Below the pieces are notes generated by a model. It had not been told where the DNA came from. It ran no database searches and saw nothing but the letters and a program-made list of their open reading frames with translations. A stretch of 25,160 bases of DNA, taken from positions 1 to 25,160 of the IMG/VR virus record IMGVR_UViG_3300043413_000040, one strand, 5' to 3'. This DNA is from a virus. Both the position numbers and the translations under genes were made by a program. Below, one piece after another: positions 2,609-23,545 of the stretch (position 1 is its first letter; each line of letters begins with the position of its first letter).

Positions 2609-2644
2609 TTTTGTTGAATTATATATTAATAAATAAATTACAGG

Positions 2645-2677
2645 AGAAAAACTAGTAGGCCATCACACCTACTAGTT
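2645..2677 (-). terminator. Intrinsic terminator closing the non-coding region
   Basis: A perfect 10-bp inverted repeat, AACTAGTAGG (2650-2659) and CCTACTAGTT (2668-2677), has an 8-base loop. On the minus strand the stem runs straight into TTTTTCTCC. Reading leftwards, it would stop any transcript coming out of the 2.7-4.1 kb gene-free region, just before the SSB-like gene. Confidence 0.7.
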
Positions 2678-2700
2678 ATAAAAACCATTAAAACAAACAA

Positions 2701-2778
2701 AGAGTCCTATAAATAGAACTCAAAGAATTTATAGATTTAATCTTACAATAGTTTTTAGCCTAATACAACTAGGACTCT
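2701..2778. repeat. Structured 78-base element with AGAGTCCTA/TAGGACTCT ends
   Basis: Nine-base arms (2701-2709 and 2770-2778) are perfect complements. Inside, CTATAAAT and ATTTATAG form a further 8-bp hairpin that shares the outermost bases with the outer stem. The size resembles a tRNA, but no D arm or TTCGA-type T loop is present on either strand, so it is not called as one. Confidence 0.5.
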
Positions 2779-3114
2779 ATTGATCTAGATTGAAATTTGC
2801 AAAAGAATATAAGGGATGTTTTCTACCTCATTTCAACAAACTATTAACCTATACAGTTAAATATTGCCATCTGCCATCTTCTACCACTAAGAATAGACAT
2901 TTTTATAATACTCTGTGTATCTTAGGGCCCGGAGTATTAGTGGATTTGTTATAATAATTTAAACTAAGAATTTTGTCCCGCACGGCTTATAATTACGAGA
3001 TTCTTAATAAAAATTACACGTTCACGTCTGCTAGATAACTAGTTTGAGCTATTAGATTTTTCTGGGCAATAAGGACGCCAACCTAAATTAATAGGTATTT
3101 TTGAGGTTTGGGAA

Positions 3115-3152
3115 TAGTAGGGCTAAGAGCTGGATTTGCCCCTAGCCTACTA
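3115..3152. repeat. Stem-loop, 10-bp stem with one bulge
   Basis: TAGTAGGGCTA (3115-3125) pairs with TAGCCTACTA (3143-3152) apart from one bulged G; the loop contains further GGGC/GCCC-like complementarity. On the plus strand it is followed by six A. It may be part of the structured-RNA or origin region. Confidence 0.5.
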
Positions 3153-3339
3153 AAAAAGTTGAAAAATTGACAAAAATTGTCAGGTTTGTAGAATTTGTGG
3201 ATTAACGGTAGGTTTTAAGGGATTAAAGGTTGATAAATGATGATTATCGGGCCAATCTTTATATCTTACCTATCAATCTTCAAAAACTATCGACTAAATT
3301 TAACTCCATTTAACCTTAACTATTTTACTATTATATAAT

Positions 3340-3420
3340 AAGAGTCTGATAATCTTAAACTGGCGTTTAAGAACAGCCTCTAATTATATCTCGCAAATTA
3401 ATTAAGTTATATAGACTCTT
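3340..3420. repeat. Structured 81-base element with AAGAGTCT/AGACTCTT ends
   Basis: Eight-base perfect arms (3340-3347 and 3413-3420) enclose a perfect 7-bp hairpin, CTTAAAC-TGGC-GTTTAAG (3354-3371). Arm sequence and overall size echo the 2701-2778 element, suggesting two copies of a related fold. Confidence 0.5.
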
Positions 3421-3843
3421 GGTGAAGTTTAACTATTTTACTAGTAGTACTATTAACCTTAAGTACTCCTATTAAAACTAATCCATTTAACTTAACGCTA
3501 CTCTAAGGTATCTCTAACTCCCTAAAGGTCGTAAGAGCTACTCTTAGTTTAGCTGAGAAAAATTGATCTATTTAGACCTAACTGATCTACTTAATATATA
3601 ATTAAGGGAGATCAATTCTTCTGAAAGCCTTATCAGATCTACAAAGAGCCTAAAATAAATTCTCACCTAGCTGATAAAAAATCTTTAACTTTTTCTCAAC
3701 CTGGTGATAATTGAACTATGAATATTTTTCCCCGAACTTTGGTACAAAAATAATTTTACTATAATTTGATAAATTTCCCAAAACTAAGTAATTTTCCAAA
3801 ATGAAAAATAAACAGGTTTAAACAGATCCACTTAACTTAACTA

Positions 3844-3898
3844 ATTGAAAACCAGCCAGTTAAAATAACCTTAATTATCTAACTAGTTGATTTTCAAT
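3844..3898. repeat. Long imperfect hairpin
   Basis: ATTGAAAACCAGCCAGTTA (3844-3862) pairs with 3880-3898 over 19 positions, with two C-A mismatches and one G-U pair, around a 17-base loop. Eight base pairs at the open end (ATTGAAAA/TTTTCAAT) and five at the loop end are perfect. The covariation-like imperfections would suit an RNA structure. Confidence 0.5.
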
Positions 3899-4208
3899 CA
3901 CTTAAGACTATTTTATAGGGTTTAGCGAAGCCAACCTTCTGAAACCCTTATGGGAGTAGCAAAAAACTTACAAAGAGAATAAAGAAAATACCCTAGGACC
4001 CAAAAGAAACAAGAGAAATGTTATTTCTCTATTATTCTATGAAAAAAATAGGGGTAGCTAGGGGATCAATCCAAATTTTTAATGTTAAGAAATTGTTAAG
4101 CTTTTAATTTCCTAGGTTTTACAAGCCTTTCCTGAGATTAAAACTATTAAGGTCAAGAGATTTCCTAGGATTAAACAGATTCACTTGATGATACTGTTGC
4201 CTATGCCT

Positions 4209-4236
4209 AAAAAAGGGGAACCAGTTAAGGCTCCCC
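4209..4236 (-). terminator. Intrinsic terminator after the 91-aa gene
   Basis: On the minus strand GGGGAGCC, loop TTAACT, GGTTCCCC and then six T follow the stop codon at 4243 within 7 bases. Eight pairs (one G-U) and a clean T tract make this the clearest terminator in the left half. Confidence 0.85.
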
Positions 4237-4242
4237 AATTTA

Positions 4243-6033: not shown

Positions 6034-6474
6034 ATGAAAAAAAGAAATATCAAAAAATATGACGGAACTTCTGTTGAAGACTGCTTAAGATACCAAAGGT
6101 ATTTAAAAAGGACATTTATGGCTAAGGTTGAAAGAGCAAGTTTATATATAGAAGAACTGAATAATAGAAAAACTCCTTCAGAATTACAATTTGAAAAATT
6201 ATTAACAGCTTGGGAAATAGAATTTGCCCCACAGTATCTTGTAGTACCTAGTACTGGAAAATACATAATAGCTGATTATTATCTACCAACTTATCATTTA
6301 ATAGTAGAAATAGATGGAGGAATTCACAAAAAACCAGAAGTTTGGTTTAATGATAGATTTAAAGAAGACACTTTAAAAGCAATTGGATTTACCAATATTC
6401 TACGGATTAAAAATGAAGATCTAATTTATTTTACCCAGGATTGGTTAGGTTCCCCTCTACAATTAAACCTATAA
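6034..6474 (+). CDS. DUF559 / PD-(D/E)XK-type nuclease
   Basis: The protein has 146 residues. A catalytic core of the DUF559/Vsr-like type is visible: SELQFEKLL (residues 49-57, Glu), IADYYLP with D81, VEIDGGIH with E92 and D94, DRFKEDTLKAIGF, then ILRIKNEDL. This order (D, then E-x-D-G-x-H, then a D-x-x-R/K-x-x-x-L-x-x-x-G helix) fits the PD-(D/E)XK nuclease fold. Such freestanding phage enzymes act as homing-type endonucleases or in DNA processing; no intron or intein is visible here. The 3' end overlaps the convergent metallopeptidase gene by 44 bases. Confidence 0.7.
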   Translation: MKKRNIKKYDGTSVEDCLRYQRYLKRTFMAKVERASLYIEELNNRKTPSELQFEKLLTAWEIEFAPQYLVVPSTGKYIIADYYLPTYHLIVEIDGGIHKKPEVWFNDRFKEDTLKAIGFTNILRIKNEDLIYFTQDWLGSPLQLNL

Positions 6475-6844
6475 TATAAGTTAAAGCATGGGGCAACATA
6501 TTACTAGCTAAGTTATTAGCTTCCTTTTCTAGTGGATTATTTTCATACCCAAAGTAATGCTCTAAGCCTAAATAACATTGATCTATAGGTTGATAGTAAT
6601 GGGCCAACTCGTGTAATATAGTACTTACAAATTCTACTAAAGGGTTGTCTGAAGCTTCAATAGAGCCCATATAAAGAGATATAGAACAAGTAGTGGTAGA
6701 ATATATACCAAAGTAGTCTTTAGTGGCTTTATATAGCCTTATTTTAGGTTTCCTGGTTTCATAGTCAGACTTGCCAGTTAAATTTATAGCCCAATTAAGT
6801 ACTGACTCAGCCAGTTCCTTATTTAAAATTATAGGACTCTTCAT
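6431..6844 (-). CDS. Small zincin-type metallopeptidase
   Basis: The protein has 137 residues. HELAH at residues 78-82 is the zinc-binding HExxH motif, and ENNPLEKEANNLA (about 101-113) supplies a likely third ligand (E106 or E108), the arrangement seen in small gluzincins such as ImmA/IrrE-like and SprT-like domains. No signal peptide, so it acts in the cytoplasm. In phages, related peptidases can cleave repressors or process proteins; the substrate here is unknown. It is coupled to the upstream gene by an ATGA overlap (6841-6844) and its C-terminal codons run antisense through the end of the nuclease gene. Confidence 0.7.
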   Translation of the reverse strand: MKSPIILNKELAESVLNWAINLTGKSDYETRKPKIRLYKATKDYFGIYSTTTCSISLYMGSIEASDNPLVEFVSTILHELAHYYQPIDQCYLGLEHYFGYENNPLEKEANNLASNMLPHALTYIIGLIVEGNLTNPG

Positions 6845-7273: not shown

Positions 7274-8239
7274 ATGAATAGATATAAAGAGCTCCAAATT
7301 AAATATGCTATTAAGACTAGTGAGCCTATTTCAGAATGGATTAAAAGAGTTGCTGCTGGAGAAAATCTGTCAATCAGAACTATTCAAAGAGCAGTAAAAG
7401 AAGGATCAAATATTCCAGTAGATTATCTAGAAAGACAATTATCTCCAATAGAAGAACATAAGTTAGCCAGTAATTCAGCTTTTAAAAAGTCTACTGGCAA
7501 TATGTGGATAGTAATATCTGATGTACATATACCAGCTGAAGATCCTGAATTGATGCAAAATCTATTTAAGATGATGGAAGACTATAAGGATCAAATAAAA
7601 GGATTTGTTATAGCAGGTGATTTCTTAGACTGTTATGGATTTTCCACCCACAGTATTAACCAGGTACAACCAGAAGGCTATTCTATGGATCTAGAGTATT
7701 CTGTAGGCAATGCTTACCTTAATAAAATAGATAGTATTTTGCCTAAGAATACACAGAAAGTGTTTATAAATGGCAACCACGAAGCAAGGTATGAAAAATA
7801 TTTTAAAAATGTAAATACAAGTGTGCTTAAAGATATTACTCCTAATCCAACAGAAGCTCTTAAATTAAAGAATAGAGGTTATACCGTACTCACTGATTGG
7901 AAAGAAGACAGCTTTAATATAGGTAAGCTCCAAGTGTTTCATGGTCAATATCTGAATGCTAATGCTATTAAAACTCACATGAATAAAACTAGAGGATCTG
8001 TTATGTACGGGCATAGTCATAGAGCAGGTTCTATATTTGAAGGTGATCATGCAGGATTTAATATAGGATGGATGGGTAATCCAGATCATGACTTTTTTAA
8101 ATATGCTTCTAGGTTTGAAAGAGCTTCCTGGGTCCAAGGATTTGCAGTAGTATATGAACTACCTAACAATGGATTCCAAGTAACCCAAATAACTTGTCAA
8201 GATAGCAGCTTTTATTTTGGAGGAAAGAAATATGAGTAA
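7274..8239 (+). CDS. Calcineurin-like metallophosphoesterase with N-terminal helical domain
   Basis: The protein has 321 residues. All motifs of the calcineurin-like phosphoesterase superfamily are present in order: D83-x-H85 (SDVHIP), GDFLD with D116, GNHE (N168-H169), H223 (FHGQ), and GHSHR (H247, H249). It should bind two metal ions and hydrolyse phosphoesters; the substrate could be DNA, RNA or a small nucleotide. The first ~60 residues (ENLSIRTIQRAVKEG) look like an HTH-type DNA-binding segment, which would be unusual for a stand-alone phosphatase. It leads a coupled small-gene cluster and overlaps the next ORF by 8 bases. Confidence 0.85.
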   Translation: MNRYKELQIKYAIKTSEPISEWIKRVAAGENLSIRTIQRAVKEGSNIPVDYLERQLSPIEEHKLASNSAFKKSTGNMWIVISDVHIPAEDPELMQNLFKMMEDYKDQIKGFVIAGDFLDCYGFSTHSINQVQPEGYSMDLEYSVGNAYLNKIDSILPKNTQKVFINGNHEARYEKYFKNVNTSVLKDITPNPTEALKLKNRGYTVLTDWKEDSFNIGKLQVFHGQYLNANAIKTHMNKTRGSVMYGHSHRAGSIFEGDHAGFNIGWMGNPDHDFFKYASRFERASWVQGFAVVYELPNNGFQVTQITCQDSSFYFGGKKYE

Positions 8240-10782: not shown

Positions 10783-11271
10783 ATGTCTAAGCAATTTGAG
10801 CAAATAACAGTACTAGTAGGACCTACGGATAATATTTATGGGTACTATTTATCTATAATCAACTCTCTAATAGGAGATATGACTGAGGAAGGTGTGTATA
10901 TACCTAATCCTCTAACTACTAGAGAATTAGAAGTATTTGCCGAGCTACTTAATGCCAATAATGAGTATAGTGCTTTACCTGTAGATAAAAGAGCCCTATT
11001 TATCAATTCTGGGGCTATTAAAAAGCAGATAAAAGATAAGCTTAGTCTAACATCAGCTGGCTTAAATAACATCATTATAAAGCTTGAAAATAAGAAATTC
11101 ATTAATGGCTTACCCCTTTATAAAGCTGGTGTAGTCAATCCTCAATTTAATAAAAACCTATATGAATACAAAGGAATACAATTTACTTTTGAAAGCCAGC
11201 CAGCTAGACAACAACAGCCGGAGCAAGTATTACACCGAGGGGCAACAGAAGATATTTCAGGAGTTAGCTGA
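10783..11271 (+). CDS. Winged-helix-like protein at the head of the packaging operon
   Basis: The protein has 162 residues. The stretch from TTRELEVFAELLNANNEY to LSLTSAGLNNIIIKLENKKFI (about residues 44-108) reads as a winged-helix or HTH domain, with 'LTSAGLNNIIIKLE' as the likely recognition helix. It is the first gene of the operon that carries the terminase, so a DNA-binding role in packaging (a small-terminase-like function) or regulation is possible but unproven. The start follows CAACAAAAAC. The last ~36 codons overlap the next gene in another frame. Confidence 0.65.
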   Translation: MSKQFEQITVLVGPTDNIYGYYLSIINSLIGDMTEEGVYIPNPLTTRELEVFAELLNANNEYSALPVDKRALFINSGAIKKQIKDKLSLTSAGLNNIIIKLENKKFINGLPLYKAGVVNPQFNKNLYEYKGIQFTFESQPARQQQPEQVLHRGATEDISGVS

Positions 11272-11476
11272 GAAATACAATATTACAGTTGACCAAGTAG
11301 CTGCTTATTGGGGTAGTATAGGTTTTATTAATCATGAGTTTATGAAGCCTAAGAAGAATAAAAAAAGACCTTTATTGTTGTTAGACAAAATAGTAAGACT
11401 AATACCTAAAGAACACAATGATTCAACTAAAAGTAAAAAAAGAAACAATCTGGAAGACAGTAAAGACTCCCTATAA
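11162..11476 (+). CDS. Hypothetical basic protein (104 aa), overlapping both neighbours
   Basis: MNTKEYNLLLKASQLDNNSR leads to a helical part (QELAEKYNITVDQVAAYWG) and a strongly basic tail (KPKKNKKRPLLLLDKIVRL). It overlaps the previous gene by 110 bases and the next by 59, each in a different frame. The frame has no clear start closer to the previous stop, apart from a late ATG at about 11341, so the long overlap may be genuine. No family recognised. Confidence 0.5.
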   Translation: MNTKEYNLLLKASQLDNNSRSKYYTEGQQKIFQELAEKYNITVDQVAAYWGSIGFINHEFMKPKKNKKRPLLLLDKIVRLIPKEHNDSTKSKKRNNLEDSKDSL

Positions 11477-11678
11477 TATTGGAGATACTGTGGGGTTATA
11501 TTCTACTGGTTTACAAGATAATATACTTTTAGGAACTATTATAGATATTAGGTTTCTTCTTAAAACTGATGAATTCCAATACCATGTGACTTTTGCTAAT
11601 GCTTGGAGAGATTGGTTCTTAAATGAGGAATTAGTCCCTATTCAAATAGAAGCTCCTACAAAAACAGGATTTAAATGA
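11418..11678 (+). CDS. Small SH3/KOW-like beta protein (86 aa)
   Basis: The core 'YNIGDTVGLYS ... LGTIIDIRF ... YHVTFANAWRDWFLNEELVPI' follows the pattern of small SH3-like or Tudor-like domains (G-D-x-V, G-x-I-x-x-I, Y-x-V-x-F, W-F-x-x-E-L), common in small phage proteins. It would be a soluble adaptor; target unknown. It begins inside the preceding gene and shares an ATGA overlap with the next (11675-11678). Confidence 0.6.
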   Translation: MIQLKVKKETIWKTVKTPYNIGDTVGLYSTGLQDNILLGTIIDIRFLLKTDEFQYHVTFANAWRDWFLNEELVPIQIEAPTKTGFK

Positions 11679-12187
11679 TACAAGATTTAATACATACAAA
11701 AAACTTTTGGGAAGAATATCCTAACACCAAAATTGATCCCAGAATTCACTTATTTTGGGAGACAGATAAATCCCCTAACAAAGAAGAAACTTCTAAAATT
11801 ATGTGGGCTTTAGCTTACTGTTTGGAAAGACATTCTCCTCTATTTAATTCTGATGCTAAATGGGAGTCTGTTAAAAAGACTATTATTAAAGATGATAAGT
11901 TTAAGTGGAGTAATTATGATACTATCAAAATAGCTTATACAGACTTATGTTTAACCCCAGAAGAAAAAGCTTATCATGAGTTACTAGGTCTACTAGAAAA
12001 CAGAAGGAAGTACTACAGTGACTTTAAATACAAAGGAGCTGAGGCAGCTGAAATTAAAGTAGTAGAACAGATGATAGGTAATACTCTTAAACTTAACCAG
12101 GATATAGCTAAGGTTAAGGAATTACTCCAAGATAAAACTATGAAACAACCAAAAAACAAGTCACTATCCGATAGTGGTAAAATATAA
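11675..12187 (+). CDS. Conserved-looking phage protein upstream of the chaperonin (170 aa)
   Basis: Starts MIQDLIHTKNFWEEYPNTKI. Features: SKIMWALAYCLERHSPLF, then KFKWSNYDTIKIAYTDLCLTPEEKAYHELLGLLENRRKYY and a long C-terminal helix rich in Lys and Glu. This pattern (FWEEYP, SKIMWA, LTPEE) resembles a family often found near terminase genes of Bacteroidetes phages, with unknown function; the resemblance is from memory. It is coupled at both ends: ATGA overlap before, 2-base gap to the chaperonin gene. Confidence 0.65.
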   Translation: MIQDLIHTKNFWEEYPNTKIDPRIHLFWETDKSPNKEETSKIMWALAYCLERHSPLFNSDAKWESVKKTIIKDDKFKWSNYDTIKIAYTDLCLTPEEKAYHELLGLLENRRKYYSDFKYKGAEAAEIKVVEQMIGNTLKLNQDIAKVKELLQDKTMKQPKNKSLSDSGKI

Positions 12188-12189
12188 TT

Positions 12190-13833
12190 ATGAACAACAA
12201 AACAGCAGTTATAACAGATAAAAATAAATTATTTAGAGGTATAGATATTATCTCTTCTACTGTAGCTAGTACTATGGGAGCCAAGGGCAGAACTGTATTA
12301 ATAAATAGTTTATTTGGACCTCCTCTTGTAACTAAGGATGGAGTAACAGTAGCTAACTCAATTAATCTAGAAGATCCTATTGAAAATATGGGAGCTTTTA
12401 TGATTAAAGAAGTAGCCAATAAAACTCTAGATAAAGCTGGTGACGGTACAAGTCAAGTCTCCGTACTATCAGCAGAATTAGCTAGACAAATACAAAGCCT
12501 GGATCAAACCAACTTTAACTTTGTTAGGGTAAATAATGGAATGTGGAAGGCAGTTGAAGATATTAAATCTATACTATCTAAACATACTCTTACTATTAAC
12601 CTGGACAATAAAGAAGAGGCTAAAACTATTATAAGTAATATTGCTACTATTTCTGCCAACAATGATTCAGAAATAGGACAATTGATAGCCGGACTTGTAG
12701 ATGATTTGGGTAAAGATTGTTTAATTATTACTCAACCCTCTAATACTCTAAACTCTTACACCAAAATAGTAGAAGGGATGGAGTTAGATAATGGCTATAT
12801 TTCTCCAGCTCTTATTAATGATCTAGAGTCTTATACTGTTAAATTGTCTAAGTCAAAAGGTCATGTTTCAGTCCTCTTGGTAGATGGAGTAATTCCTAGT
12901 CCCAAGTCTTTACATGCCTTAATGGAATTTTCTAAAAAGAATGATAATCCAATTCTTATTATTGCTACTGACTATGAACCTAATGTAATAGATTTCCTGT
13001 GTAGTAATGTTAAGGGGGTAGGATTAAAAGTAGCAGCAATAAAGACTCCTGGTTTTGGTGATAGACAAGTAGAAATACTTAAAGACTTATCAGTTCTAAC
13101 AGGAGGTAATATATTTAAAGCTGATCCAGAACTATTAGCTGAGATCAAAGATGTCAGTCAACTAGGTAAATGTACTGATGTTATTTGTACTAAGGGTACT
13201 ACTAAATTAGTAGGAGCTACTCCCGATAAAAAGGAACTTGACTTAAGAGTCGCTCAAATCAAAGCTCAACTAGATTCTACTACTGAAGTATATGACCAAG
13301 AAAAGTTATCTGAAAGATACTTTAAACTTAAATCTGGAGTAGCTACTCTTTTTGTAGGTGGTCAAACTGAAATGGAAGTTAAAGAAAAGAAGGATAGAAT
13401 AGATGATGCTCTCCATGCAGTTAAAGCTGCTCTAGCTGATGGTTATGTACCTGGTGGTGGAATTATGCTTTATAAAGCTGGTTTGATTCTAGCTAACTCT
13501 GAAGAGAATTATGAAGCTGATTTTCAAGTAGGCTATAATATAGTTCTAAAATCCATTTATAGCCCTTTTAAGACCATCTTAGATAATGCTGGTATAAACT
13601 ATTCAGCTATACAGGAAAGTGTCTCAGATCCTCTAGAAATGCTTGGCATCAATGTTCTAACTGGTCAAAAAGAAGATCTAGCTAAAACAGGAATTATAGA
13701 TCCGGTAAAAGTAATAATTACAGCTTTGGAAAATTCAGTTAGTTTAGCCACTACTCTTATGTCTAGTAAGTATATTATATCTCCTACTAGTCAACCAGAA
13801 GCTTATAACGCACACCAACAATTTAAATTTTAA
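12190..13833 (+). CDS. groEL: Full-length GroEL-type (group I) chaperonin
   Basis: The protein has 547 residues, essentially the length of bacterial GroEL. ATPase elements are all present: TKDGVTVA with D50, AGDGTS with D85, and RIDDALHA with D406 (equivalent of GroEL D398), followed by VPGGGI. The intermediate and apical domains are also present (VEGMELDNGYISPALI about 194-209, AAIKTPGFGDRQVEIL about 282-297, LRVAQIKAQL). The C-terminus lacks the GGM repeat and ends HQQFKF. It should form ATP-driven folding rings. No groES-like gene is visible, so it may use the host co-chaperonin or none. It sits in the packaging operon between small genes, 2 bases after the preceding stop. Divergent but with no broken motif. 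Confidence 0.95.
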   Translation: MNNKTAVITDKNKLFRGIDIISSTVASTMGAKGRTVLINSLFGPPLVTKDGVTVANSINLEDPIENMGAFMIKEVANKTLDKAGDGTSQVSVLSAELARQIQSLDQTNFNFVRVNNGMWKAVEDIKSILSKHTLTINLDNKEEAKTIISNIATISANNDSEIGQLIAGLVDDLGKDCLIITQPSNTLNSYTKIVEGMELDNGYISPALINDLESYTVKLSKSKGHVSVLLVDGVIPSPKSLHALMEFSKKNDNPILIIATDYEPNVIDFLCSNVKGVGLKVAAIKTPGFGDRQVEILKDLSVLTGGNIFKADPELLAEIKDVSQLGKCTDVICTKGTTKLVGATPDKKELDLRVAQIKAQLDSTTEVYDQEKLSERYFKLKSGVATLFVGGQTEMEVKEKKDRIDDALHAVKAALADGYVPGGGIMLYKAGLILANSEENYEADFQVGYNIVLKSIYSPFKTILDNAGINYSAIQESVSDPLEMLGINVLTGQKEDLAKTGIIDPVKVIITALENSVSLATTLMSSKYIISPTSQPEAYNAHQQFKF

Positions 13834-13844
13834 TACCAACAAAT

Positions 13845-14303
13845 ATGTATAACAATTCAGGCAAAAAAATCTCTTCAAATGCTATTATTAAAAGATTCGA
13901 AGATCAAGAAAAAGAACTTACCAATCTAGGAACAGATATGTTTTCTATGATGAGAATTATTCAAGAAATACAACAGAAGTATGATATAGTTCTTATCAAA
14001 CTGCTTAATCAAATGGATCTACCTACTCTTAATGAGATAGATTTTACTGATGAAGAATTTGAAGAGTTATATGCTCCTCTTGTACCTAGCTATTTTATTG
14101 AAAAATCTACAGGTGATTTTGTTAAAGTTGTTAGTATTTTTACTGGATGGAGTTTTGATAGAGAAGCTTCAATGGAGGCTAAAAAGTTTATCTTTAAATC
14201 AGAACAGCAAACTTGTGAGTTTGAAGTAGGTAGTCTACAAGAAGCCTATATGAAACTTAAAGAAGTAATTAGAGAAAATAACAGAATTATAATTGAAGAG
14301 TAA
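13845..14303 (+). CDS. Hypothetical protein preceding the terminase (152 aa)
   Basis: MYNNSGKKISSNAIIKRFED begins a protein with a helical, coiled-coil-like N-terminal half (EDQEKELTNLGTDMFSMMRIIQEIQQKYD), an acidic patch (DEEFEELYAP), a beta-like middle (GDFVKVVSIFTGWSFD) and a helical end. The start follows CAACAAAT. It overlaps the terminase start by one base. A small-terminase role is conceivable from position and coiled-coil character, but nothing diagnostic is seen. Confidence 0.65.
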   Translation: MYNNSGKKISSNAIIKRFEDQEKELTNLGTDMFSMMRIIQEIQQKYDIVLIKLLNQMDLPTLNEIDFTDEEFEELYAPLVPSYFIEKSTGDFVKVVSIFTGWSFDREASMEAKKFIFKSEQQTCEFEVGSLQEAYMKLKEVIRENNRIIIEE

Positions 14304-16549
14304 TGATAAATAACTCTGAGTTTTTATTAAAAGAGATACCCTTTTTCCATCCAGATCTAGATGAATATGAGTATGTAGATTTTTGGAGAGGAGTAAAAAG
14401 CAAGATTATTCAAGGAGAAATAATTGGTGGGAAGTTTATGCCTGGACCACTTTGGTATGGGTGTAATTTCCACAACATTCAACTAGAAGATCCTATGGGT
14501 AATCAGTATCTAGGTTTAATGAAAGTCAGGGATATTGATTGGGAATTATATTACTATTATGAGGAAGCCAGGGGATTCTCTGGCTTCTCTAATTCTAAAT
14601 ATTCTTGTCACAGAGATCTTGGGGATCCAGATGTCAGTGATGAAGATTTGCTTAGAAGAATAGATTTTATGGGTAAAAGGAATCAGCTTTATTATGATAA
14701 TGTGTTTAATAAAGATGGATCTAGAAAAATTTATAAACCTGCTAGAGAAGTTTTGAGAAGTTTAGATGCTTCTGGTATTCCTTTGTATTTTAATAATGCA
14801 AAGAATGTAGCTTTGTTATCTAGTAGGATGGCAGGGAAAAGTGTTTTTGCCTCAGTATTAGCTAACCATAACATAATTACAGATGGGGCACTGTATTCAG
14901 ACTACTATTTTGAACAAAAGGATTTAGGACAAGCTTTTAAATCTTTTACTATTGTAGCTTCGCAAGAAGGTAAGTATGTTAATAGTATTATGAAGATTAT
15001 TAAAGAGGCTTACTATAATTATCCTGGTAAATTTATTACTTCTAATACTACTTGGGAATCTCCTCTATTTAAAACTCCTAACCCAGGAGCTGATTGGGGA
15101 GACAGTTCTAAATCTACAGCTGGCTCTGTTACTTTTAATGGTAAAGATGGTACTGGTATTATTTCTAGGGTAGTAGCTGATAATCCTTTATCAGTAAACT
15201 CAGGAAGACCTAATTTATCTATTATAGATGAGTTTGGTTTTGTTAGTACTCTTACTGAAGTTATAGGAGCTCTAGAAGGATCTACTGCTGCTAAAGCTAG
15301 AAAGAATAACCCTATTATGATGATGGGTACTGGTGGTTTAGGAAGTTCTGGAGCTATTAAATATGCAGAAAGAATCTTTATGAATCCTGATGCCTACAAC
15401 TGTATAGCTGTAGATGATATATTTGAAAACAGAGGTAAGATAGGTATCTTTATTCCTATTACTATGGCTAGTATAGCTTACAAAAAGGGAGAAAACTTAA
15501 TTACTGATTTGGATTATGCTGAAAAAATGCAATTTGCTGAAAGGGTAAATAAGAAAAAAGATGCTAAAGCTTATCAGTCTTATATTATCAATAATCCTCT
15601 TTTTCCAAGTGAGTGTTTTTTGCTAGGAGACAATTCTGTATATCCTACTATTTTACTTAAAGATCATTTAGCACAACTTGAATTTGGCAATAAAACAGAC
15701 GTTTTAAGAGACTCTGCTAAAGGATGGTTCAAAGAGTTGAATGGAGAAATTGAGTTCAATGAAGAGCCTATAATGCCCATTAGAGACTATCCGTTAAACA
15801 ATTCTACAGACAGTAATAAAAAAGGAGCTTTTGAAGTTTGGCAATGGCCCCAGAAAGATGAATATGGAGTTATTAAAAAAGGTAGATATATAGCCTCTGC
15901 TGATATTGTGGCTAATGATGTAATTGGTAAATCTGAATCCCTACCATCACTACTTATATTTGACAGAGAAACTAGAATAATAGTAGCTGAATATACAGGT
16001 AGGACAAATGACACTAAGTTCTTTTATACTCAAGCAAGAAGAGCCTTACAATATTATAATGCTGTATGTATGTATGAGCAGAATATTAAAGGGATGTTTA
16101 CTTTCTTTGAACAGGAAAGATGTCTACATTTATTAGCTGACAGACCTCATCAGATGAGAAATGCTGAGGCTCCTTTTGTAGAAGGTACTAATACCTCTAA
16201 GGGTATTTTGATGAATAAACCTAACATCAATACAGGGGTCCAGTATATACAGAGTTGGTTAGAAAGTGAGTCACTAGTTAATACTCAAGACTTAATGCTC
16301 CACCATATTAATTCTCCAGCAATTCTTAAAGAGTTAATATCTTATGATCCTAGTGATGGTAACTATGACAGACACTCTTCACTGATACTATTAATGTGGT
16401 ATGATGAAACTTTAAGGGTATATCAGAAGAAAGAAACTAGTGAAAGAAGAAAGACTTTTTATGATAATTATTTGAATGCCAGACAGAAAGATTTAGGTAA
16501 GAATAATAGCCCATTAAAACAAATCTCACCTCTCCCTACTAAAGATTAA
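14303..16549 (+). CDS. terL: Terminase large subunit
   Basis: The protein has 748 residues. The N-terminal packaging ATPase shows a Walker A-type loop SSRMAGKS (173-180) and Walker B LSIIDEF with D309-E310. The C-terminal RNase H-like nuclease carries D534 (ASADIV), E592 (CMYEQN) and a likely third acidic residue D689 (NYDRHSS). It cuts concatemers and drives DNA into proheads through the portal, whose gene follows after 63 bases. Length and gene order suit crAss-like phages. It starts one base before the preceding stop ends, so it is tightly coupled to the chaperonin operon. Confidence 0.93.
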   Translation: MINNSEFLLKEIPFFHPDLDEYEYVDFWRGVKSKIIQGEIIGGKFMPGPLWYGCNFHNIQLEDPMGNQYLGLMKVRDIDWELYYYYEEARGFSGFSNSKYSCHRDLGDPDVSDEDLLRRIDFMGKRNQLYYDNVFNKDGSRKIYKPAREVLRSLDASGIPLYFNNAKNVALLSSRMAGKSVFASVLANHNIITDGALYSDYYFEQKDLGQAFKSFTIVASQEGKYVNSIMKIIKEAYYNYPGKFITSNTTWESPLFKTPNPGADWGDSSKSTAGSVTFNGKDGTGIISRVVADNPLSVNSGRPNLSIIDEFGFVSTLTEVIGALEGSTAAKARKNNPIMMMGTGGLGSSGAIKYAERIFMNPDAYNCIAVDDIFENRGKIGIFIPITMASIAYKKGENLITDLDYAEKMQFAERVNKKKDAKAYQSYIINNPLFPSECFLLGDNSVYPTILLKDHLAQLEFGNKTDVLRDSAKGWFKELNGEIEFNEEPIMPIRDYPLNNSTDSNKKGAFEVWQWPQKDEYGVIKKGRYIASADIVANDVIGKSESLPSLLIFDRETRIIVAEYTGRTNDTKFFYTQARRALQYYNAVCMYEQNIKGMFTFFEQERCLHLLADRPHQMRNAEAPFVEGTNTSKGILMNKPNINTGVQYIQSWLESESLVNTQDLMLHHINSPAILKELISYDPSDGNYDRHSSLILLMWYDETLRVYQKKETSERRKTFYDNYLNARQKDLGKNNSPLKQISPLPTKD

Positions 16550-16612: not shown

Positions 16613-19027
16613 ATGAGTTTTCCAGCACAAAAAATAGCTTCTAGTAAGAAGAATGAACAATGGTACAGAGATAACCTAGAGGCAGCTTGTAGCTATTCTA
16701 GAGGTGTAGCTTCTTACCATAAAACTTGGAAAGCAAGAAGAGAAAACTACTTACTATCTATAGGTGAATTAGATGTCCACAGTGTAGGTAAGGAAATAGA
16801 TTTCCAAAATCAAGGGTTAGATAGTTACCCAATTCAGTTAAAGCATATTGGTATTGGTAATTCTAAAATTAATGTCCTATTAGGAGATTATTTTGACAGA
16901 AGAACAGAGCTAAGAGCTTTTATATCTAATGCTGATGAAGAAGGTATAACTAGAAAAGAGAATGATTTAAAGCAACAGATGCTGTCTAGAATGATGGCAT
17001 TAATTCAAAGTCAGTTTGAAGCTGGTCAAGTAGATCAGAAATATGTAGAAGCTGAAACTCAAAAATTAGAGGAATGGGCTACTTATGAATATCAAGATGT
17101 TGCTGAGATTACTGCTAACCAAATATTAAAACACGAATATAACAAAAAGAATATTAGCTATACTATGGCTATGGGATTTAAAGATCTCTTAGTCCAAGGT
17201 AAAGTGGCTTACTGGATTGATGAATTTGGTAAAGACATAGATCTAAGAAAAATAGATCCTATGACAGTTACAGCTGTTGGTGGATCTTCTCCCTATCTAC
17301 ATGAGAGGGATTATATTATTGTAGAGCAATATAAGTCTCTTGGTCAAGTTTATGATGACTATTGGGACAAACTTAAAGAGAAAGATAGAACAGAATTAGA
17401 GGACAGAATGAGTAATAACAATTCTGCTTCTTGGGGTAATCAGCCTGCTGTTTGGTCTGGAGAATTTGCTACTGCTGAAAACTTTGGAGATAAAGTAGGT
17501 TATCCAGATGGATTGTCTAATATGCCTTTATTTAAGGGCAATGATTGGGAACAAATGCCTACTGGAGCTATCTGGGCTAAAAATCCTTATGTTAATTCTG
17601 ATATATTAGAGACTACTGTTTTTTGGAAATCTAGAAGAAAGCTAGGAGAATTAACTACTCTTAATGAGTTTGGTATGCCTGAAGTTTCTTATGTTTCAGA
17701 AAATTATATTTCAGACAAATTTGCCGGAGAAACTATTAAATGGTTTTGGGTTAATGAATGGTGTAGGGCAACTAAATTAGGAGCTGATATTATTATTAAT
17801 TATGGTCCTATTGAATCTGCTTGTAAATCTCTTACTAATCTATCTACTGGACTTCCTCCTATTATTGGAGTAGAAGTAGCCCAATCTATGATGGATATTA
17901 TTAAACCACTAGATTTGGAGTATGATAAAGCTTACTGGAAGAGAAGTGTACTATTGTCTCAAATGCAAGGAACTAAGACTGCTGTCAATGTTAGTATGGT
18001 TCCTAATGGAGTAGATCCAAAAGAATGGCTTCACATGGCTAATATAGACCAAATAGTGATGCTAGATCCAACTCAAGAGGTATTGTCCGGACCACTAGAT
18101 GGTAAAGCTGCTAGTGCTGCTTTAAACACTTTTATTACCCAAGATATTAAGTTTGGTACTAACCATGAGCAAATACAAGCTCTTACTGACTACTTGATAA
18201 ACTTAGAATACACTATGGGTAAAATCTGTGGTGTTAATGGTACTAGAGAGGGAGAGGTTGGAGAAAGACAGGCTGTTAGAAATACTCAGCTTGAAATGGC
18301 TCAATTTTCCAAGATTACTGAACACTGGTTTCAGTTAGAAGAAGATTTGAAAAGAGTAGTATTTAAGAAGTTCTTGGAAATAGCCAAAACAGTTTATAAA
18401 AAATACCCTATTAAGGGCTCTTATATTCTCAATGACTTATCCCAGGAGTTTATTCAAAACTACCAAGAGTTTGCTGAGAGTGAGTTTGATATACATGTTA
18501 ATAATGCTACAGCTGATGGTCAGTTGATGCAGAAATTACAAGCCTCTGTTGATGCTGCAATTAGTGCAGGTCAAGGCACTTTAGAAGATCTTTTGACTGT
18601 TAATTCTACTGGATCTATTCAATCAATAGCTAGAAGACTTAGAGAGAGTTCTAGAAAAATTAGAGCTGAACAACAACAGATACAAGAAGCTCAAAATAAA
18701 GCTGCTATGGAAGCTAAGCAGATGGATGCTCGAGAAAATCAAGTTAACAGAGAACATGAGATTATTAAACTTGACAAGACTATTGAGATTCAAAAGTATA
18801 AAGTAGATAGAGATAATGAGACTAAACTTGCTATAGCTGATTCTAATCTTAGTGCTAACTCTGAAGTAGATTTAGTAGATGATAGAGAATTAGACTTAGC
18901 AGATATTGCTCTAAAAACTAGAGACTTACAGGAAAAAGAAAGGTCAAATAGAGCTAAAGAAGATATAGCTAGAGAGAAAAATCAAATAGCTAGAAACAAA
19001 CCTAGACCCTCTACTACTAAAAAATAA
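16613..19027 (+). CDS. Portal protein
   Basis: The protein has 804 residues, long for a portal but in keeping with crAss-like phages. The central region (about 70-620) has the mixed composition expected of a portal clip, stem and wing, including PLDLEYDKAYWKRSVLLSQM and an internal LEEDLKRVVFKKFLEIAK helix. The last ~140 residues are highly charged and helical (QQQIQEAQNKAAMEAKQ, EHEIIKLDKTIEIQKYKVDR), probably a coiled-coil barrel. It forms the dodecameric DNA channel at the head vertex. Position between terminase and scaffold/capsid genes is the strongest argument; no short diagnostic motif exists. Confidence 0.85.
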   Translation: MSFPAQKIASSKKNEQWYRDNLEAACSYSRGVASYHKTWKARRENYLLSIGELDVHSVGKEIDFQNQGLDSYPIQLKHIGIGNSKINVLLGDYFDRRTELRAFISNADEEGITRKENDLKQQMLSRMMALIQSQFEAGQVDQKYVEAETQKLEEWATYEYQDVAEITANQILKHEYNKKNISYTMAMGFKDLLVQGKVAYWIDEFGKDIDLRKIDPMTVTAVGGSSPYLHERDYIIVEQYKSLGQVYDDYWDKLKEKDRTELEDRMSNNNSASWGNQPAVWSGEFATAENFGDKVGYPDGLSNMPLFKGNDWEQMPTGAIWAKNPYVNSDILETTVFWKSRRKLGELTTLNEFGMPEVSYVSENYISDKFAGETIKWFWVNEWCRATKLGADIIINYGPIESACKSLTNLSTGLPPIIGVEVAQSMMDIIKPLDLEYDKAYWKRSVLLSQMQGTKTAVNVSMVPNGVDPKEWLHMANIDQIVMLDPTQEVLSGPLDGKAASAALNTFITQDIKFGTNHEQIQALTDYLINLEYTMGKICGVNGTREGEVGERQAVRNTQLEMAQFSKITEHWFQLEEDLKRVVFKKFLEIAKTVYKKYPIKGSYILNDLSQEFIQNYQEFAESEFDIHVNNATADGQLMQKLQASVDAAISAGQGTLEDLLTVNSTGSIQSIARRLRESSRKIRAEQQQIQEAQNKAAMEAKQMDARENQVNREHEIIKLDKTIEIQKYKVDRDNETKLAIADSNLSANSEVDLVDDRELDLADIALKTRDLQEKERSNRAKEDIAREKNQIARNKPRPSTTKK

Positions 19028-19111: not shown

Positions 19112-20206
19112 ATGTTTAATAATTTTAAATTGCCTGACCAGGTAAAGAAAGAACAAGAAGAGTGGGAAAAAATGGGATTCTCCACAGTCAAAGATTTGAG
19201 TGATGGTGAGTTTATTACTCCTTCTAGTGATGACCCAGACCTTTCAGGAGATGATTTAGGGGACCAAGGTTCAACTCAAATCAATAAGCCTTCTACTAGT
19301 ACTGATGTCTATAAAGAGTTGTTTAAACAGCTCGTAGAGAAGTCTGGTGGCACAATTAAAGAAGATGAAGAACTAACTATTGAGGACAGCACACAGTTGA
19401 TTGATCTTTTGGAAGAAAGAGTTATTTCAGCTAAAGCCAAGCAGATGATAGATAAGCAATTTGAATCAGCTGCTCCTCAAGTAAAAATGTTTTTAGGAGT
19501 TAAAGATTATTTTGATGATGATGTAGAAGCTCTTAAATATGTTAATACAATTTCTACTTTAGAAAGTTTTTCTGCTGAAGATATGGAAAATGCAGATTTG
19601 CAAAAAGACATTTATGCAGATTACTTGATGACAGTCAAGAACCATACTAAAGAAGAAGCTGATGAAGCAATTAAATCTGCTGAGGCTCTTTCTGAACTTG
19701 AAGAGAAAGCTGCTAGAGCTAGAAAACAACTTATTTCTACTTATACAGATAACCTAGATGTTATTAAGGGGAATAAGAATAAAAAAATAGAAACTGCTAA
19801 GAAAGCTCAGGAAAAAGAAATTAATGATATTCTTTCTAGAATAGATAAGATGACTGAAATTAGAGGTCTTCCTATTACAGAAGAATTTAAAAAAGCAGTT
19901 AAAAAGAATCTTACAACTCCTGCTGGTAAGGTAGCTGATAAACCGGTTAACCAATTTGCCCTAAAGCAAGGACAACATAAAGCTGAAGTAACAAAAGCTA
20001 TTGAAGTATTAAACACTCTTGGTTTGTTTAATATTGACTCTGACGGTAATTGGTCTCCAGACTTTACTAAAATTTCAACTATTGTAAATAAACCTGTAAA
20101 AAATAAGCTCGATGAAATGCTAAAATCAAATCCTTCTACTGGAACACTAGATGTTGTACAAGGAGGTTTGATGGAGGTTATGAAGAAAGCGGGTTATAAT
20201 AAATAA
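19112..20206 (+). CDS. Putative capsid scaffolding protein
   Basis: The protein has 364 residues. It is acidic near the N-terminus (SSDDPDLSGDDLGDQGS), then dominated by charged helices (EEADEAIKSAEALSELEEKAARARKQLIS, KKAQEKEINDILSRIDKM), with a short C-terminal domain ending MKKAGYNK. A soluble, acidic, coiled-coil protein directly before the major capsid gene is the usual profile of a scaffold that organises prohead assembly. No protease motif is seen, so how it is removed is not clear. It is 27 bases upstream of the capsid gene and probably co-transcribed with it. Confidence 0.65.
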   Translation: MFNNFKLPDQVKKEQEEWEKMGFSTVKDLSDGEFITPSSDDPDLSGDDLGDQGSTQINKPSTSTDVYKELFKQLVEKSGGTIKEDEELTIEDSTQLIDLLEERVISAKAKQMIDKQFESAAPQVKMFLGVKDYFDDDVEALKYVNTISTLESFSAEDMENADLQKDIYADYLMTVKNHTKEEADEAIKSAEALSELEEKAARARKQLISTYTDNLDVIKGNKNKKIETAKKAQEKEINDILSRIDKMTEIRGLPITEEFKKAVKKNLTTPAGKVADKPVNQFALKQGQHKAEVTKAIEVLNTLGLFNIDSDGNWSPDFTKISTIVNKPVKNKLDEMLKSNPSTGTLDVVQGGLMEVMKKAGYNK

Positions 20207-20233: not shown

Positions 20234-21763
20234 ATGAGTAAATTTCACAATTTGCAACTTAATGAAGCCCGTGATTGGAAAGGTAACTGGGCAGATGAAA
20301 GATTGCTTTACCAAGCACTTCAGGTAGAACCTAAGTATTTGGACAAAACTGTAACTCAGTTGTATGGCTGCAACCCAGACACTGAGCTTATTAAATTCTA
20401 CAATTCATTCCCCACCTTGACTGTTCCTGGTGAGAATGATATGTACTACTATGATGTACAAGGTAAGACTACTATTGCTGGTATCCTTGCTGATGTCCGT
20501 AGAGCTAATGGTGAGTCTTTGTCCTTGGGTACTTTGGTTACTCCAATTACCTCTGATGAGATTTTCTTCTTGCGTTTTGAGAAGCCAATCTTTTCTCAAA
20601 CAATGACTATTAAAAATGAGTCAGACAACTTCCAGTTCTATATTGAGAACTCTCAAAATGTTCCTGGTGGTACTGAGTATGAAGTAAAAGTTATTAAGCG
20701 TCCTGGAGATTACTTCCAAATTACTCTTGATGAGTTGAAGCTTAAATCACGTTTTGCACCTATTGGTGGATCTGTAGCTGACCACTTCTCTAGTCGTGGT
20801 ATGGAAGGAGCTTTCTTCCCAGGTACTTACAAGATGGGCTTTAGAATCAATAAAATGCGCTATGAGTATAAAATCTCTGGTGCTATGATTGAGCAAGGTA
20901 AAAACTACCCAGTTAAAGTTCCATTTTATTTTATGGACCACAATCAAGGTAAATTGGGCATGGCTCCAGCTTATGTTAATGCAATGGAGATGGCTAGTAT
21001 GGCTACTTTTGAATTGCTTAAAGCTCGCGCTAGTCTTTACTCTAAAGCTAACTGGGATGTCCAAGGCAGAGTAGATATGTTGGATGCTAATGGTCACAAT
21101 GTACCTACTACTTATGGTTTGTTTGAGCAAATTGTAGCTTACAACCGTTTGAAGTACTCAACCTTCTCACTAGATTACTTGACTGATGTTATTCTTACTC
21201 GTATGATCCACAAGCGTTCTAGAGGTGACAGAAAAGTTAGATTGGTAACTGGTGAATGGGGTGCTAAAGCTTTCCATGATGCAGTTGATAAAAAAGTAGG
21301 TACTACCAATGTTAACTTGCTTAACACTCAATATATTCAGAATGCCTCTGCTAGTAATACTGGTGCTACCAATGCTCTTGGTTTTGGCTACCAATATACT
21401 TACTACCGTTCTGTAAATGGTATTGACTTTGAGATTTATGTAGCTGATTGGATGGATGATAAAAACTTCTTCCCAACTGTAGATCCTCGTGGTGGTTTTG
21501 GTACTGCTAAATCTTACACTTATTACATTATGAGTGGAGATATGGGTTCTGAAACAGGTATCTTCAAGATCAAATCTAATACCTCAACTCTTCCTGCTCA
21601 TGCCATGATTAATGGTATCCGTTCAGGTATGAATCCTGGCGGTATGGGTAGAGTAGCTAATGCTGCTTCTGCAATGGATGGTTATGAAGTACATCACATG
21701 GATACTGTAGGTCTTTTGATGAAAGATCCAGAAGCTATGGTAGAATTGTCTTTGGCAATCTAA
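20234..21763 (+). CDS. Major capsid protein, HK97-type
   Basis: The protein has 509 residues, in the size range of crAss-like capsid proteins. It starts MSKFHNLQLNEARDWKGNW and is rich in beta segments and glycine (PGGTEYEVKVIKRPGDYFQI, GTYKMGFRINKMRYEYKISG, GFGYQYTYYRSVNGIDFEIYV). Location after portal and scaffold supports the call. Codon use differs from neighbours: arginine is often CGT (e.g. near 20500, 20575, 20700) while AGA dominates elsewhere, consistent with selection for high expression. A GGGGAGT-type terminator follows. Confidence 0.88.
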   Translation: MSKFHNLQLNEARDWKGNWADERLLYQALQVEPKYLDKTVTQLYGCNPDTELIKFYNSFPTLTVPGENDMYYYDVQGKTTIAGILADVRRANGESLSLGTLVTPITSDEIFFLRFEKPIFSQTMTIKNESDNFQFYIENSQNVPGGTEYEVKVIKRPGDYFQITLDELKLKSRFAPIGGSVADHFSSRGMEGAFFPGTYKMGFRINKMRYEYKISGAMIEQGKNYPVKVPFYFMDHNQGKLGMAPAYVNAMEMASMATFELLKARASLYSKANWDVQGRVDMLDANGHNVPTTYGLFEQIVAYNRLKYSTFSLDYLTDVILTRMIHKRSRGDRKVRLVTGEWGAKAFHDAVDKKVGTTNVNLLNTQYIQNASASNTGATNALGFGYQYTYYRSVNGIDFEIYVADWMDDKNFFPTVDPRGGFGTAKSYTYYIMSGDMGSETGIFKIKSNTSTLPAHAMINGIRSGMNPGGMGRVANAASAMDGYEVHHMDTVGLLMKDPEAMVELSLAI

Positions 21764-22834: not shown

Positions 22835-23545
22835 ATGACAGCTAATGAAATGGCGGATAAATTAGAGCAGGTTTATTTAAACTTGACTAATGCCCAGTTT
22901 TCTTATGAAGACTTGGAATTATCCTCCATTTTATCTAGCGCACAACAGCTCTATTTTTCAAGATATTTAGAGAAAAGTAATATAAACAAATATAGTTTTG
23001 AGGAGACTGAGTTAAGAGGTTGGGGATTTGGCCCATTAATTTCTGACTCAACTTTAACTCTTAGTGCTTCTCAAATAGGTGTTTTAGAGAATGGTTTTTA
23101 TTTTGATCTTCCAGCTGATTTCCAAGCAATTATACTGGACTTGCCTACTAGCAATACTGTTAAGTGCAATTCAACTGAAAAGATTAAACCAATGGTTGAA
23201 GTTATATCTCATGATGAATACCAGAAGGCTATTAGAAACTATTACAAAAAACCCTATATGAGTGGATCTGATGGGAAGTTTTGGAGAATGTATGACAGTA
23301 CTAAAAGAGTGCAACTGATTGTACCTCAAGGTGTTACTATAGACAATTATAGAATTAAGTACTTGAAGTCATTACCAAACATTGTTGTGGACAGGATTAC
23401 TCCTACTAACCAGGTTAATTGCTTGTTAAGTAGCGAACCTAAAACTATCCATGAGACCATTGTGAAATTAGCTATGGAGTTAATATTTACTCAAACTGGG
23501 CAACAAGTTGTACCTAATCAAATAGGTATTGACATTTTTAATTAA
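22835..23545 (+). CDS. Putative head-tail connector (adaptor) protein
   Basis: The protein has 236 residues. The N-terminal part is helical (MADKLEQVYLNLTNAQFSYEDLELSSILSSAQ) and the centre is beta-rich with tyrosines. The end (TIHETIVKLAMELIFTQTGQ, about 211-230) matches a pattern I associate with adaptor/connector proteins of podoviral and crAss-like necks, in which a C-terminal helix follows a 'HxxIVxLAxEL' motif. Position after the capsid-linked gene fits a ring protein below the portal. The call is by composition and position only. Confidence 0.5.
   Translation: MTANEMADKLEQVYLNLTNAQFSYEDLELSSILSSAQQLYFSRYLEKSNINKYSFEETELRGWGFGPLISDSTLTLSASQIGVLENGFYFDLPADFQAIILDLPTSNTVKCNSTEKIKPMVEVISHDEYQKAIRNYYKKPYMSGSDGKFWRMYDSTKRVQLIVPQGVTIDNYRIKYLKSLPNIVVDRITPTNQVNCLLSSEPKTIHETIVKLAMELIFTQTGQQVVPNQIGIDIFN

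Follow-up and report, generated by a model that had tools for sequence, protein, structure and literature searches.

A lone, strongly diverged GroEL-family chaperonin gene among the packaging genes of a crAss-like phage

Results

The window, the whole stretch of DNA analysed here, is a linear 25,160-base piece of the genome of a Crassvirales phage; the genomes of its relatives measure about 100 kb. We assigned it to this order because its capsid and ring proteins match crAss-specific Pfam families above the cut-off and its large terminase (TerL) is closest to that of Cellulophaga phage phi14:2. The crAss capsid gene lies in a TerL-portal-capsid-ring block with phi14:2-like order. Named phages are only distant to the window, with identities of 26% for the major capsid protein (MCP) and 29.5% for TerL (phi14:2), and the phage order points to a Bacteroidota host. 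The main features are as follows.

11418..11678, + strand: 86 aa ORF in the slot of the phi14:2-type GroES-like gene; no test identified it as GroES
11675..12187, + strand: putative small terminase (TerS), by position; most crAss-like loci have a homologue immediately before TerL
12190..13833, + strand: GroEL-family group I chaperonin, 547 aa; matches to Pfam PF00118, PHROG 5725 and PDB chaperonins, ATPase residues kept
13845..14303, + strand: 152 aa gene between GroEL and TerL, function unassigned; homologue in L017 (41% over 71 aa)
14303..16549, + strand: large terminase subunit (TerL); PHROG 6681, 1.7e-65; 29.5% to phi14:2 TerL
16613..19027, + strand: portal protein; PHROG 6547, 1.7e-68
20234..21763, + strand: major capsid protein, crAss type; Pfam PF23898 Crass_capsid, 1.5e-59
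22835..23545, + strand: tail ring protein, crAss type; Pfam PF25710 CrAss_Ring_3_4, 4.9e-14

The chaperonin gene sits inside a plus-strand run that begins with 10783-11271, 11162-11476, 11418-11678 and the putative TerS gene, and continues after GroEL with 13845-14303, TerL, portal, 19112-20206 and capsid, on through the ring protein. Only 2 bases separate GroEL from the preceding gene, whose stop ends at 12187, and 11 bases separate it from the next one, which starts at 13845; the stop of the latter and the start of TerL share one base, 14303 (TAATG). These measurements agree with the original prediction, which placed GroEL 2 bases behind a small gene and in a coupled run with the large terminase. 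That small gene, 11675-12187, had no family match in Pfam or PHROG. The crAss gene adjoining terL is considered a likely TerS (PMC7886860), and we read 11675-12187 as TerS because of its position next to terL and because its homologues precede TerL in most relatives with sequence there.

Upstream of the packaging genes, the window also encodes a metallophosphoesterase (7274-8239, +), a DUF559 endonuclease-like protein (6034-6474, +) and a weak match to an SprT-like zinc peptidase (HELAHYY; 6431-6844, -). Positions 2609-4242 form an AT-rich stretch of about 1.6 kb with several imperfect direct and inverted repeats, in which the coding side holds no ORF of at least 60 aa; an Rfam search of this stretch gave no match.

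A complete but diverged GroEL

The GroEL frame runs from an ATG at 12190 to a stop at 13831-13833, with no internal stops. Residues 21-531 of the protein match Pfam Cpn60_TCP1 (PF00118) over profile positions 1-487 of 490 (E=9e-54), the PHROG 5725 family 'chaperonin groEL' matches with E=7e-124, and the best PDB match, to GroEL structures, covers residues 11-531 (E ~4e-109). This full-length Cpn60 homology spans the equatorial, intermediate and apical domains, as expected from the original prediction of a complete three-domain GroEL. The three ATPase aspartates that it had listed, D50, D85 and D406, align with the E. coli catalytic residues D52, D87 and D398. A fourth aspartate, D504, aligns with E. 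coli D495, and the alignment shows K51 and the GGG motif to be retained as well. The nucleotide loop reads GDGTSQ instead of the usual GDGTTT (T90S/T91Q), which could lower the ATPase activity. The apical domain carries a 4-residue insert. Several inter-ring residues are altered in the alignment (E461N, V464A, K105S and E434A), with the equatorial strands kept. The C-terminus is ...YNAHQQFKF; the GGM repeat is thus missing, as had been noted from the DNA.

Changes were also found in the GroES- and substrate-binding groove. The E. coli positions L234, L237, L259, V263 and V264 are H, M, I, C and S in the window protein, which leaves two of the five core positions hydrophobic, whereas all 31 bacterial GroELs sampled keep five of five (mean 5.0). 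The corresponding means are 4.86 for phage GroELs adjacent to a GroES (n=57), 4.77 for other phage GroELs (n=35) and 3.0 for crAss GroELs (n=16). Further changes in the mobile-loop groove are Y203A and F204L; Y199, M237 and I259 are still hydrophobic. As crAss GroELs with diverged partners are eroded too, the state of the groove is compatible with a diverged partner as well as with a missing lid. It suggests mainly that a canonical host GroES is not the normal lid, and so weakens the case for canonical GroES use; the family assignment is unaffected.

Compared with bacterial GroEL (E. coli, Bacteroidales), the window protein shares the three domains, the ATPase residues and the length (547 versus 548 residues), but it is only 37-40% identical, its groove is eroded, and both the GGM tail and an adjacent groES are missing. 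The GroELs of phi14:2 and cr108_1 are 33% identical to it and shorter (490-494 aa), lacking an equatorial stretch near E. coli positions 425-480. Across the genomes, plasmids, phages and viral contigs that we searched, the highest identity, found with an IMG/VR contig, was 41%. The original prediction had named a near-identical host groEL as the counter-evidence to look for, and none was seen. The phylogeny that it had proposed gave no firm placement. The terminal branch of the window GroEL measured 2.4-2.7 changes per site in trees of 78 and 48 GroELs, and AU tests rejected neither a clade with other crAss GroELs (p=0.365) nor placement with the bacterial-type clade (p=0.55). A grouping with phage EL in the tree sits at a fork without firm support and involves long branches. 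The Bacteroidota reference set consisted of three GroELs from plasmid records, with which a closer Bacteroidota lineage could be missed. On sequence grounds, we regard the protein as a new, strongly diverged phage GroEL, genuine and phage-resident. The long branch could reflect a shifted role.

The nearest relatives lack GroEL at this site

Single-protein queries of viral contigs with the window TerL or MCP returned no close relatives; these were found with an alignment query. The nearest TerL relative, contig L017, is 43% identical. There, the TerS-like gene stops at 85-87; a homologue of the window's 152 aa gene begins 10 bases further on, TerL comes next, and no GroEL intervenes. TerS-like genes likewise stop within a few bases of TerL in L018-L022, L025 and L028. 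GroEL had been described as fixed in this lineage, which these data do not support: L017 has the same site without it, and GroEL is absent from all other window-type relatives whose sequence extends far enough upstream. The 152 aa gene (13845-14303), which we had considered as a GroEL partner, was ruled out by its homologue at the GroEL-free L017 site.

GroEL would therefore have been gained as a single gene at the TerS-TerL junction in the window lineage, or lost by the others; gain is the simpler reading of these data. Such a gain would not be recent, because the GC content and codon usage of GroEL resemble those of its operon neighbours.

GroEL and GroES in crAss-like packaging operons

GroEL in a Crassvirales packaging operon is recurrent, already partly annotated and not unique to the window. 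Annotated GroELs lie upstream of TerL in Cellulophaga phage phi14:2 (g105), cr108_1 and cr111_1 (Steigviridae, Asinivirinae), in all of which, as in the window, the gene belongs to the packaging operon ahead of TerL and portal. About 15 IMG/VR contigs related to phi14:2 also carry an operon GroEL. In these phi14:2-type loci, GroEL precedes the TerS-like gene wherever the latter is visible; in the window it lies downstream of the TerS-like gene, between it and TerL. The three annotated phages also have an operon GroES-like gene, whereas the window has neither this gene nor their GroEL placement.

The window was searched for a partner in several ways. Pfam gave no Cpn10 match anywhere in the 25,160 bases, beyond which about three quarters of the genome lies; custom GroES profiles did not match any window ORF; and a profile comparison of 14 small window ORFs with GroES gave no match. 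The 86 aa ORF at 11418..11678 was rejected as a hidden co-chaperonin, with a profile-comparison probability of 0.4% and no phage homologue; its AlphaFold2 model was uninformative (pLDDT 49). The claim that a groES partner is missing therefore stands for the 25 kb window. It describes an atypical locus, as a GroES-like gene accompanies GroEL in each of the 15 phi14:2-type GroEL loci whose sequence extends 4 kb or more upstream. Beyond crAss-like phages, a recognisable GroES was present in 52 of 82 viral GroEL loci, mostly directly upstream.

With Pfam Cpn10, 49 crAss loci yielded 15 with GroEL, 6 with GroES and none with both, suggesting that these phages have one or the other, never both. We discarded this reading because custom profiles revealed diverged GroES-like genes in the operons of GroEL phages, with support from fold and annotation. 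The custom profile was built from phage and bacterial GroES and run at full sensitivity, and the family was grown iteratively from the same loci, which gives weight to three checks from outside it. The GroES-like protein of L058 (AlphaFold2 pLDDT 86) matched GroES structures with probability 1.0 and T4 gp31 with 0.98, at modest Foldseek E-values (best 8e-4), and that of L084 scores above the Pfam Cpn10 cut-off. At the same place, cr85_1, cr116_1 and cr111_1 are annotated with a 'putative 10kDa chaperonin [phiCrAss001]' that scores with the custom profile. The diverged genes of phi14:2-type loci lie directly before GroEL or directly before TerS.

We assigned loci to the phi14:2 type or the window type by TerL bit score and counted those whose sequence reached 4 kb or more upstream of TerL. 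Among phi14:2-type loci, 15 had GroEL and GroES, 16 GroES only, 3 neither and none GroEL only; among window-type loci, 4 had GroES only, 4 neither, and one, the window, GroEL only. These counts include near-copies (L006 and L080 are the same phage) and do not represent independent events.

GroES-like genes occur in most phi14:2-type packaging operons, with or without GroEL, and mostly fall under the Pfam Cpn10 cut-off. They include L006 7767-8156 (phi14:2 g096, annotated only as hypothetical), L058 5392-5757, L065 636-956, L073 7714-7992, L076 7285-7602 and L084 1367-1645, among others. In L050 (7870-8460) and L053 (8825-9418), the gene immediately ahead of the TerS-like one encodes a longer protein, of about 196 aa, that contains a GroES-like domain. 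Three window-type relatives without GroEL encode a canonical GroES on the opposite strand (L024 2461-2757, L033 5432-5722 and L038 1043-1342, all -), 3.8-4.9 kb upstream of TerL, with an intact GIIIPDS/GIILPDS loop in a gp31-like arrangement. The GroELs of L005, L006, L065, L068, L069, L070, L076, L079, L082 and L092 are about 471-501 aa long and lack the equatorial stretch near E. coli 425-480, which bears inter-ring contacts; these short proteins may be single rings.

Discussion

The intact frame, the retained ATPase residues, the coupling to the TerS-like gene and TerL, and the occurrence of GroEL as one gene at a site that L017 leaves unoccupied all support a working chaperonin. We consider it rather probable that the window encodes an old, phage-resident and active group I chaperonin, which is co-produced with the packaging and virion proteins of this crAss-like phage and aids their folding. 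Produced from one operon with these proteins, presumably late, GroEL would form a ring and bind and release its clients by ATP, the likely clients being late virion proteins. The ring may be closed by a diverged lid that the phage encodes beyond the window, or it may act lidless, as reported for EL, OBP and AR9. Dedicated folding of virion proteins, as originally proposed, is plausible, since the packaging operon repeatedly holds chaperonin genes across the phage order; the many related operons with GroES, or with GroES and GroEL, fit a late, virion-folding role.

Two refinements of this explanation concern the lid. That the window GroEL works with a diverged phage GroES-like lid encoded outside the window, as in phi14:2-type phages, is a serious possibility that we would not presume: the partner gene is present in 15 of 15 phi14:2-type GroEL loci that extend 4 kb or more upstream, L024, L033 and L038 carry their opposite-strand GroES, and groove erosion is also seen in crAss GroELs that have such partners, but in these relatives GroES lies within 6 kb of TerL, and the window's 14 kb upstream of TerL has none. 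That it is lidless, like the jumbo-phage chaperonins of EL, OBP and AR9, is likewise held tentatively. The lack of a GroES-like gene in 25 kb, the eroded groove, the changed inter-ring residues and the missing GGM tail all point this way; against this, the window is only part of the genome, the tree grouping with EL is long-branched, and EL itself may have an unrecognised lid (PMC7185714). Use of the host GroES, the phage supplying extra GroEL during infection, seems unlikely to us, given L234H, V263C, V264S, Y203A and F204L in the mobile-loop groove and the hydrophobic core conserved in every bacterial GroEL sampled, even though no phage GroES is seen in the window and Y199, M237 and I259 could still offer hydrophobic contacts. 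To our knowledge, every bacterial host has a GroES, which also counts for this reading.

It is improbable that the protein has lost general folding for another job, such as an assembly binding protein or counter-defence: the very long branch and the altered nucleotide loop would fit, but the protein retains K51, the GGG motif and every ATPase aspartate, and its operon is one in which chaperonin genes turn up repeatedly. It is extremely unlikely that the gene was recently picked up from a host or is an assembly contaminant. Bacterial GroELs are nearer in identity than crAss GroELs, and a bacterial-type placement was not rejected, but nothing in the sequences searched exceeds 41%, a level at which we reject recent capture, and the long terminal branch, the phage-like codon usage and the coupling inside the operon speak against it as well. 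A bolder version of our favoured reading, which we regard as speculative and rather unlikely, holds that from relatives with GroES only or no chaperonin gene, the window lineage took up a lone GroEL and adapted it to lidless virion folding, independently of the jumbo-phage chaperonins.

What is unusual in the window is the position of GroEL between TerS and TerL, its solitary state and its eroded groove. One operon of one phage order thus offers a natural series, from no chaperonin gene seen, through GroES only and GroES with GroEL, to GroEL only in the window. With this series one can examine which half of the folding machine has to come from the phage, and whether group I chaperonins are able to lose the lid. 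As the culturable relative phi14:2 encodes GroEL and the unannotated GroES-like g096, the idea can be tested at the bench.

Virioplankton chaperonins are the subject of a survey by Marine et al. 2017. The word stem 'chaperon' is absent from the crAss papers PMC7886860 and PMC10136315. Phage GroEL-like proteins with no recognised lid gene nearby, as in the window, are known from EL (gp146), OBP and AR9 (PMC7185714, PMC9598537), but the window GroEL is much closer to bacterial GroEL and lies in a crAss-like packaging operon. PMC9598537 describes the EL, OBP and AR9 chaperonins as functional in the absence of a co-chaperonin; the EL protein was reported not to interact with E. coli GroES, a distant phage GroES not being excluded (PMC7185714). 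T4 gp31 and the crAss '10kDa chaperonin' are GroES-only cases in which the phage supplies one half of the folding machine; L024, L033 and L038 are GroES-only relatives of the window, which supplies the GroEL half. Two unrelated phages also have GroEL among late genes: in myovirus MW202566 (L016 5633-12654) the order is an annotated 'mhsp60' gene, GroEL, TerL and portal, and Vibrio phage Va1 (L014 3890-8420) has GroEL between tail sheath and tail tube.
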